A stretch of 64,000 bases of DNA from Acidithrix ferrooxidans (GTDB lineage Bacteria; Actinomycetota; Acidimicrobiia; Acidimicrobiales; Acidimicrobiaceae), in assembly GCF_000949295.1 (NCBI RefSeq), contig NZ_JXYS01000007.1, positions 1 through 64,000 of the forward strand, given 5' to 3'. Under the pieces are notes generated by a model that worked only from the letters and a program-made list of their open reading frames with translations, had not been told where the DNA came from and did not search any database. Shown here one piece after another: positions 2,792 to 33,888 of this stretch (position 1 is its first letter; the number at the start of each line of letters is the position of its first letter). Position numbers and translations under genes: made by a program.

Positions 2792-3590
2792 TGGCTACCA
2801 GATACTTTGGAATTCGACGTACAATAAATAGGAACTTAGCCCATTCGGGCGCCCTTGCGCTGGTCTTTTAATTTGACGTGGTCGGTTAATGGTTTTCTAA
2901 ACCCAACTGCACGAAAAGCATATGACTCTACTGTCGACATGTTTCAATCCGCGCTCTTTCAACTTGTGTGTTTGGTCTGGCTGTGGGCCATCTCGGGATG
3001 GCTCATAGAGGTAGATAAATTTCCCAGATGTGATTTCTAAAATCGGTACGCTCTGGAGATAATCTTTAGTCAAATAGGGGTCGATCCTCCAAAGCAGCTT
3101 ATCTCTCTGGTTCATCTTGTTCGTCTTGCATGCACTCTGGAGTGAGCTGGTTCATTATGCAAATCAAATATGGTCGATTCGAGCCCGGCAGTGGTCGTTA
3201 TATAGTGAATGAATTTGGCCAATTGCAATAGTCAAACCGCTTATTTGAATGCTTATTAGAATAAGGTGGCTACTCGTTTGGTTCATCGACAACTTTAGTC
3301 CCTCTTTGCTAAAGAGAAATTGATGGTAGCTTTTACCTCTTGGAGGGTTGGGTAGCTGACCTTGGAGCCGGGATTCTCTTGGAGGTTTTTGAGAGAAGAG
3401 ACTTTTGTCTTGTCGCTATATCTCTTTAGATTTAGCTCTTTGGGAATTAAGCACGACTCTTGAATGAGGTGGTTTAAGATTCGCTGGGGAGCCAACTGGG
3501 TTTTTCCAATTTTGTTTTTAAGGTTTTCTTCGATGCCGTCGAAGATAGCAGTTGAGCATTGGTTCTTATTTACGTCTAAGAGCTAAAAGT
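2792..3590. other. Intergenic stretch without a supported gene
   Basis: This holds the upstream region of the DrrAB-like operon and short open frames on both strands (for example 2897-3115 and 3295-3495 minus). None has a convincing ribosome binding site, a recognisable motif or a family-like composition. I see nothing else to name here. Confidence 0.5.
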
Positions 3591-3656
3591 GCCCCAAAGA
3601 GTTCCAAAGAGCAAAAGATGAGAGTTTGTCTAGGAATTGCCTTTGGGGCATTTTTC
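3591..3656. terminator. Bidirectional Rho-independent terminator
   Basis: GCCCCAAAG (3591-3599) pairs perfectly with CTTTGGGGC (3641-3649), and AGTTCC inside the left arm can extend the stem with GGAATT. On the plus strand the hairpin is followed by ATTTTT; on the minus strand it is followed by ACTTTT. It sits 55 bases past the stop of the minus-strand small gene at 3704, so it most likely ends that transcript. Confidence 0.6.
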
Positions 3657-3703
3657 GTTGTGAATCTTGCCTGGCGCTTTAGGTTTTGTTTAGAACTATT
3701 TAG

Positions 3704-3895
3704 TTATCCGTAAACTGGTGCTCCTGACTTTAGCTGGGAAAGTGGTGAACCTCCAGTTGTGGCGGTGGCTCCTCCTTTTGCTGGTTCAACTCCTTTGTCT
3801 CCGTCACCATCTGGAGCCTTCGAAGTTGCTGATGCTGATTTTGAAGCGCCGCCCCCAGCCATTACAGGGGCTGCCGCTATTGCCGAAATGCTCAT
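3704..3895 (-). CDS. Small Gly/Ala/Ser-rich protein of unknown function (63 aa)
   Basis: The ATG at 3895 follows AAGGAGAG with a six-base gap, one of the best ribosome binding sites in the window. The product starts M-S-I-S-A-I-A-A-A-P-V, continues with a Gly-, Ser- and Lys-rich low-complexity middle holding an acidic D-G-D-G-D-K cluster, and ends S-G-A-P-V-Y-G. The frame is open upstream to a TTG at 4012, but that start lacks a well-spaced site. A hairpin with a T-run follows the stop. There is no membrane helix or clear signal peptide. I do not recognise the family; low-complexity composition makes a spurious ORF possible, but start site and terminator together favour a real gene. Confidence 0.5.
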   Translation of the reverse strand: MSISAIAAAPVMAGGGASKSASATSKAPDGDGDKGVEPAKGGATATTGGSPLSQLKSGAPVYG

Positions 3896-4387
3896 GATTC
3901 TCTCCTTATATTTCATGAATGAGCTGACCCAATCCTTATATAGGAATTGATCGACCGGGTTAGTTAATTCTTGAATTTGCCTCTTCAGGGAGTCTTCAGA
4001 TTTGGTCAGCAAAGTCCTGGATTCACCTTCGGTGAGCTTGGGGATGAATCCCTTTGTTGGTTCAGCTAGGCGCGATTAGGTCAGCTTCTTGCGGAGAACC
4101 CCCATTTCAATGGCTATACAATAGAATTTGATGCCCGGATTGCAAGACCTTGGTACAAAGTTGATTTTTAGATAAGGGTGCTTTGTGAGTTTTTAATTTT
4201 CATATGATTAGGGTAGAGCAAATCCCATTTTCAATCGAAGCTACATTGATGAATTGCGATCTTAAAAAGGAAGTTCGGATCATAGATGGTATTAATATCT
4301 TCAGAACTACCTTGGTATTGGGTGATATTTATTTCTAGAGTATCGGACTACAGGACGCGACAATCGGCTCGATTCGTATCAAAAGAG
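3896..4387. other. Gene-free stretch between the small protein gene and rarA
   Basis: It carries the upstream region of the 3704-3895 gene and lies downstream of rarA. No open frame, repeat or strong hairpin stood out. Confidence 0.5.
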
Positions 4388-32955: not shown

Positions 32956-33888
32956 TCAGCTCTTTATGAGATTGGGTTCAATGCCCCATGTGAAACTCTT
33001 GGTCTCTTCTGGTTCAAGTTTTATCAAATCTACGCCGGAGTTAAAGGCATCCGGTGGTGCGCTCATTGGTTCAATCGCTATTGAGTGGCGGCGTCTCTTT
33101 GCATCAGGCAGGGTGTCGCCACTGTAGAGTTGCAGATATTGGTAGGACTCGTCCATCCAAAGTGTTGTCTTGGAGTCAGTATCGTTTGAAAGAGTAATCC
33201 TTGCTAACCCATCTTTGTCGCGATCAATATCGCTAAAGGTGTGGTCCAAGGCCACCGATGCGATCTTTTTATTTTTCCTGAAGTCATAGATGGTATCTTC
33301 CACCTCTTTCTTTGCGATTGGAATCGCCTGATCGTCCTTTTCAAAGTAGGAGTGTGCAGGGCTTTGTAGCTTCAATTGGTCGATTTTTTCACCAAATAAT
33401 GATATATATGGATGTGCTCCGGTGGCTAGTGGCGCCGGGGTGTCGCCTATATTTTTGATTGTCGTTTCTACTCTAAGGCCAGCTTCTCCTATGTCGTATC
33501 TGATTTGACATAGCAACATGAATGGCCACGATGTCGTTGGAGGCAGGAATAACTCGTATGTAACCGATTCTTGGGTTGAACGAACTAATTCGAAGTTTTG
33601 CCAACGGGTGAGGCCGTGGATCGCATTGTTATTTCGTGCCTCACTCAAGTCGAGCTGGTAGGCTTTGCCGGCCCAATGATAGCGCGCCCCACGGATCCGA
33701 TTTGGCCATGGGATCATGGTTTGGCCTCGTGTACTGTCTGCTATCGAGTTTTCTTCGAAGCCCTCGACTACCTCAGTCTCATCTTTTGTATATCTTCTAA
33801 GGCCACCTCCGACCGAAGTGGTTGTGACCTTTTGATCACCGAATGATATCGTGGCTTGATTGCCTGATGGTGGACGCATTTTAGTCAT
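32956..33888 (-). CDS. galM: Aldose 1-epimerase (galactose mutarotase) family protein
   Basis: 310 residues from the ATG at 33888, which has AAGGAA five bases upstream; the open frame to 33927 is less likely. The beta-sandwich epimerase family is visible: N-A-I-H-G-L near residue 90, T-G-A-H-P-Y with the catalytic His in the middle and I-A-I-E-P-M-S-A-P-P-D-A-F near the C-terminus with the catalytic Glu. It converts beta- to alpha-galactose for galactokinase. It is 118 bp downstream of the alpha-galactosidase on the same strand and likely in one transcript. The gene symbol is by family; related members act on glucose-6-phosphate or other sugars. Confidence 0.85.
   Translation of the reverse strand: MTKMRPPSGNQATISFGDQKVTTTSVGGGLRRYTKDETEVVEGFEENSIADSTRGQTMIPWPNRIRGARYHWAGKAYQLDLSEARNNNAIHGLTRWQNFELVRSTQESVTYELFLPPTTSWPFMLLCQIRYDIGEAGLRVETTIKNIGDTPAPLATGAHPYISLFGEKIDQLKLQSPAHSYFEKDDQAIPIAKKEVEDTIYDFRKNKKIASVALDHTFSDIDRDKDGLARITLSNDTDSKTTLWMDESYQYLQLYSGDTLPDAKRRRHSIAIEPMSAPPDAFNSGVDLIKLEPEETKSFTWGIEPNLIKS

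Follow-up and report, generated by a model that had tools for sequence, protein, structure and literature searches.

The YjfB_motility family (PF14070) comprises putative motility proteins of the Bacillus YjfB type, and in Bacillus YjfB is controlled by the flagellar sigma factor. A precedent of a different kind is provided by the calcium-binding loops of EF-hand, dockerin and similar proteins, in which the aspartates are spaced as in DxDxDG; many small proteins with the motif DxDGDxDG are probably present in Proteobacteria. A passage of PMC11607428 describes YjfB as an uncharacterised small protein and assigns it to a gene sub-module that includes sigma-28. In the library searched, nothing was identified on yjfB in connection with the SigD regulon, and no paper contains the letters DGDGDHG. 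The gene described here comes from a 64,000-nucleotide stretch of the genome of Acidithrix ferrooxidans (contig NZ_JXYS01000007.1, positions 1 to 64,000; hereafter, the window). Given that the promoters of several orthologues are flagellin-like and that the carriers mainly possess flagellar genes, it is best interpreted, with a probability of roughly 0.55, as encoding a small, largely disordered protein that is transcribed alone within the late flagellar (sigma-28/FliA) regulon.

The coding sequence (3704..3895, minus strand, stop codon included), delineated by the open reading frame, the homologues and the dN/dS ratios, extends from an ATG at 3895 to a TAA at 3706-3704. The product, MSISAIAAAPVMAGGGASKSASATSKAPDGDGDKGVEPAKGGATATTGGSPLSQLKSGAPVYG, consists of 63 residues, as proposed in an earlier note that gave no strand. 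An alternative in-frame TTG upstream would extend the protein to 102 residues; the homologues begin at the position of the ATG. The ribosome-binding site, AAGGAGAG (3900..3907, minus strand), is present as noted earlier but lies four bases ahead of the ATG rather than six, and TAAGGAGAG is retained ahead of the start codon in three congeners. Taken alone, this site is weak evidence for a gene because the pattern is found 4-8 bases 5' of an ATG in 8 rows (7 places) genome-wide, compared with 4 for the reversed pattern. The gene is single-copy in the genome (the sole other row, with E 0.04, falls within a 506-residue frame). Scans of the protein against Pfam, NCBIfam and PHROGs yield no match, and neither do Pfam and NCBIfam scans of its homologues, apart from the YjfB match of one Alicyclobacillus copy; there is no Rfam match at the window locus or in a set of eight loci, and a sigma-70 promoter scan detects 0 sites with 3.0 expected.

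Downstream of the gene, a hairpin (3590..3650, unstranded; main stem at about 3650-3590) starts about 53 bases past the stop codon. Its minus-strand fold (-25.6 kcal/mol, z -5.6) is equalled by none of 200 shuffles, so that the hairpin reported in the earlier note is recovered as a structure far stronger than shuffled sequence. It makes a mediocre minus-strand terminator because the stem is long and interrupted and the tail contains four U. On the plus strand, the fold reaches -31.7 kcal/mol (z -5.2) and the U tail, with five U, is better; the only site that the terminator scan reports at the hairpin is on this strand, so that the hairpin may terminate transcription both ways. Viewed over 3580-3665 of the window, the structure is nearly symmetric, with the better fold and the longer U tail on the plus strand. 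Clean GC-rich hairpins follow the copies in two congeners (G007 and G001). The view of the locus as a self-contained transcription unit, also put forward in the note, holds.

Comparison of the homologues points to purifying selection, with dN/dS of 0.04-0.20 within two clades (dS up to 2.4), 0.28 between the window and its congener G009 (dS 2.5), and 0.34 between G050 and G138; an excess of synonymous over nonsynonymous change, which the earlier note had named as the expected support for the gene, is thus observed. Two segments of the protein stand out in the alignments: the core DGDGDKGVEP (residues 29-38; codons at 3782..3811, minus strand) and, in the first alignment, the C-terminal tail LSQLKSGAPVYG (residues 52-63; codons at 3707..3742, minus strand). 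The strongest conservation is that of the central DGDGD(H/K)G(I/V)E, within the stretch that had been described as a low-complexity middle; the tail, previously considered the conserved part, keeps its tyrosine in almost every sequence of the first alignment but is second to the core. In the 13 aligned members, Met1 and D-x-DGD-x-G-x-E are invariant, with a proline after the glutamate in most. The other core positions vary once each (histidine replaces the first glycine in G571, and lysine replaces histidine in the window), and the G242 copy has asparagine at the histidine position. Most members start with M(S/N)(I/V)S or a close variant, and the spacers, rich in Ala, Ser, Gly and Gln, vary in length. 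Tails in the family of the window contain Leu-x-x-Leu, then Gly, with Tyr in the last or next-to-last position; four of the five Bacillota copies end in KGQH(I/V)N plus three residues. An AlphaFold2 model built from seven sequences is of low confidence (mean pLDDT 57.7, pTM 0.15), with a sole short helix at residues 51-55. The core DGDGD(H/K)G has the aspartate spacing of the DxDxDG calcium loops but, unlike these, shows no Pfam match to such a family and no confident fold; models of EF-hand and other Ca2+-loop families in Pfam and NCBIfam match neither the window protein nor its homologues. The acidic core probably binds a divalent cation.

A search with profile A3, several rows of which derive from the very genomes that it finds, detects the gene in 11 of 60 genomes (that of the window organism and 59 relatives) at E<1e-11; the next match has E 0.034, and the 7 further genomes matched (E 0.034-0.093) are not counted. 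A single-sequence search, with matches in the genus and the family, retrieves 20 of the 60 genomes at E<=0.1, and the 11 that were kept are the same 11. Across the order, the gene is present in 6 of 298 genomes (E<=3.8e-6); 11 reach E<=0.01, among which G078 (2.3e-5), G103, G119 and G053 were dropped after inspection of the frames and G060 was dropped unread. A core-peptide scan of the genome_contigs collection returns 510 stretches, 8 of which encode relatives: three known congeners (G007, G008 and G009, recurring as L036, L037 and L040), two Bacillota MAGs, Alicyclobacillus tolerans, one Proteobacteria MAG and one Acetobacteraceae MAG. The G008 copy is truncated by a contig end and, together with a second fragment at another contig end (L030), is counted once; A. 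tolerans possesses a second copy. Two of 299 genomes in a sample of the class of A. tolerans are carriers, that is, one beyond A. tolerans itself, as is one of 299 in the order of the Acetobacteraceae MAG; G411 and G836, which have long frames and no short ORF seen to contain the core, are excluded from these counts. The family is thinly scattered across three phyla. Phage or plasmid cargo was considered and rejected given that two viral-contig scans (92 and 113 pattern stretches) contain 0 relatives, and tblastn of four queries against plasmids gives nothing at E<=10, a search in which the low-complexity filter possibly masks such queries.

The connection with sigma-28 was assessed using a promoter model trained only on flagellin upstream regions of the window's family (30 loci yielded 28 upstream regions, of which 24 were used, with three from outside the family and one too short omitted), with the consensus CTAAAG-N15-GCCGATGC. 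The model scored the 160 bases preceding each small gene as well as those preceding 90 control ORFs. Of the 10 small-gene upstream regions in the window's family, 5 outscore all 90 controls (best control 13.4), with 19 bits for G019, G029 and G032, 16.1 for G013 and 13.6 for G007; this control set is conservative because it includes the window organism's own flagellin upstream region (13.1). The other scores in the family are 10.8 for G025 (6% of controls as good), 9.3 for G001 (10%), 8.7 for G009 (11%) and 7.7 for G008 (17%). In the window, a putative sigma-28-type -10 box, GTCGATCA (3948..3955, minus strand), and -35 box, TTCAAG (3970..3975, minus strand), score 9.3 bits, a value equalled by 10% of controls and 8% of shuffles, so that this match is not significant alone. 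The window and the distant congener G009 (dS 2.5) share TTCAAG-N14-GTCGATC at an identical 52-base offset, in upstream regions with an overall identity of 58/150; none of 2000 shuffles gave 13/13 in that layout, for a box that was picked after being seen. The nine copies tested from other families, namely three in f16 and six in Bacillota and Proteobacteria, do not stand out, their scores being reached by 17-62% of controls; the G323 copy was left out of the test. Combined with one value per clade, the test gives p 5e-4, based on clade values chosen by the analyst (medians, floor 1/91). Thus, several orthologues carry the pattern learned from flagellin promoters, whereas the window site is a weaker match and the copies tested outside the family have no such site.

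Two other upstream elements were observed in these comparisons. In another family of the order, three copies (G050, G138 and G242, at L016, L047 and L048) share, by eye, a box of the approximate form AAG(G/T)T..GGT(A/T)AAG, which does not resemble a sigma-28 site and is possibly a regulatory site of another kind. The flagellin leader, from the sigma-28-type promoter to the start codon, is strongly conserved in five genomes of the genus with a mean column identity of 86% (L083:1390-1488, L089:1390-1488 and L090:233-331, all on the plus strand, and the corresponding position in L086 and L080). It contains the stem-loop GGUGAC...UCUUGCCGCAAGA...GUCACC; L083, L089 and L090 show no Rfam match, and the fold z-scores of three leaders are modest, from -1.0 to -2.4. 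The leader may act as a regulatory RNA for flagellin.

Of the 19 carriers, 17 have FlhA or flagellin; the two misses are G032 (76% complete) and G323 (a 2.2 Mb MAG). FlhA is present in 13 of the 15 carriers searched; the remaining four (G001, G007, G008 and G009) have flagellin, and G009 also has FlhA. In the order, FlhA is encoded by 6 of 6 carriers, three in each of two families, against 64 of 298 genomes (Fisher p 8e-5, with kin treated as independent). Among the 60 genomes, 8 of 11 carriers have flagellin, compared with 23 of 49 non-carriers (p 0.11); within the genus, the figures are 5 of 5 carriers and 3 of 7 non-carriers (p 0.07), so that flagellin presence alone is not decisive in separating the two groups. 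Many flagellated relatives lack the gene, which therefore encodes a flagellar accessory at most. The promoters and this distribution, considered together, make it probable that the gene belongs to the flagellar regulon. Identity with FlgM was rejected because there is no Pfam match.

Several alternatives have to be weighed against a flagellar-regulon gene. A spurious ORF, located over a conserved RNA or open by chance, would account for the low-complexity composition (84% of the residues are A, G, S, T, P, K, D, E or Q); it is hardly credible, however, in view of the purifying selection on the protein despite high synonymous change, the retained start and ribosome-binding site, and the lack of an Rfam match. 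The earlier note had held the frame to be a real protein with no recognised family and had named missing homologues or broken frames as grounds against it; the homologues detected are conserved and intact, and the 63-residue product almost certainly represents a genuine, previously unannotated family of small proteins. The note also raised the possibility of a bacteriocin-like precursor, and a secreted peptide of this kind, bacteriocin or signal, would fit a small, Gly/Ala-rich product encoded upstream of same-strand ABC ATPase and ABC-2 permease genes that might export it. In the congener G007, however, rarA and aspS are upstream of the gene, just as they are in the window, yet on the other flank pirin takes the place of the transporter; in the other eight neighborhoods read, the ORFs look unrelated by eye, with no transport gene in common. 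A bacteriocin with a dedicated exporter thereby loses its main support, the transporter not being kept beside the gene, and no conserved double-glycine leader with its cleavage site is seen by eye in the alignments. A precursor exported in this manner is accordingly very improbable, and the bacteriocin identity was rejected. The broader suggestion of a secreted or structural peptide is possible, in a flagellar setting that the note had not proposed. None of the nine neighborhoods read contains, by eye, a flagellar cluster around the gene, which is solitary in all of them.

Of the known families, YjfB comes closest, being likewise short, mostly solitary and found in flagellar company, and the protein could in principle be a true but divergent member, in which the helical stretch of the middle was lost and the DGDGD module acquired. 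Bacillota tails such as EPGKGQHIN (EP-x-KGQH(I/V)N in four of five copies) resemble YjfB tails such as EPGKGQNVD, EPGKGQNVDIRI and HPxLGxxID, and the second copy of A. tolerans reaches 27.5 bits against YjfB_motility (cut-off 27). This match is borderline because the same copy falls below the cut-off in a six-frame search, with 24.1 bits; the other 12 of the 13 aligned members do not match the model, and the window protein gives no match at E<=10. An hhalign comparison with YjfB is weak for the Bacillota set (21% over 12 columns) and nil for the set from the order (0.4%). These two sets match each other at 98%, which is no independent proof of kinship because it rests on the core by which both were found. 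The window protein starts with MSIS, not MD(I/V), and has neither the helical segment in its middle nor the Gly...Asp close to its end (the 12 YjfB proteins of alignment A4 have invariant Pro, Gly and Asp toward the C-terminus, whereas the window tail has no Asp after Gly). YjfB itself is present in 28 of 101 genomes of the Alicyclobacillus class, 19 of them over the cut-off, and the DGDGD core is absent from the 27 YjfB proteins read other than the A. tolerans copy (28 of the 30 listed loci). True membership in YjfB is therefore improbable; the window protein may act like YjfB and may share descent with it but is not filed as a member. One of the two A. tolerans copies (L126, G322:C105, about 33300-33480) joins a YjfB-like middle to the DGDGD core and is possibly an intermediate form. 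The most substantial competitor, possible though rather unlikely, is that the gene encodes a small protein for metal binding or acid stress in bacteria that live in acid, metal-rich settings, with an incidental flagellar link because the carrier lineages happen to be motile. Such a role is compatible with the thin scatter across three phyla, with carriers outside the order that include A. tolerans and the Acetobacteraceae MAG, with the DxDGD core, and with the nine copies outside the family that lack a sigma-28-like site. It is harder to reconcile with the flagellin-like promoters of several orthologues and with FlhA in most of the carriers searched, and the acid-mine origin of the MAGs is read from isolate codes only, the record titles being silent.

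Under the favored interpretation, as a gene of the late flagellar regulon, the small protein would be made together with flagellin and might serve as a flagellar accessory comparable to the YjfB-type small motility proteins. Its disordered start, M(S/N)(I/V)S, resembles that of flagellar export substrates. Together with the probable binding of a divalent cation by the DGDGD core, this resemblance suggests, as the likeliest mechanism, that the protein passes through the flagellar export apparatus or binds to it, although this mechanism is tentative, as is a cation-binding accessory or export role in general. More speculatively still, the family might represent an undescribed component of the flagellar regulon across three phyla, a disordered protein of 50-80 residues with an invariant cation-binding DxDGD core that is exported through or docks on the export apparatus, where metal loading would tune flagellar assembly in acid, metal-rich water; such a protein could stand in for YjfB, to which the Alicyclobacillus intermediate would tie it. 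Because they are short, disordered and missing from family libraries, small accessory proteins of the flagellum easily escape detection. The one described here is directly amenable to experiment, owing to its conserved core, its testable promoter and its occurrence in three phyla, and the DxDGD core offers a concrete proposal, cation binding, for a protein class that lacks a known mechanism.
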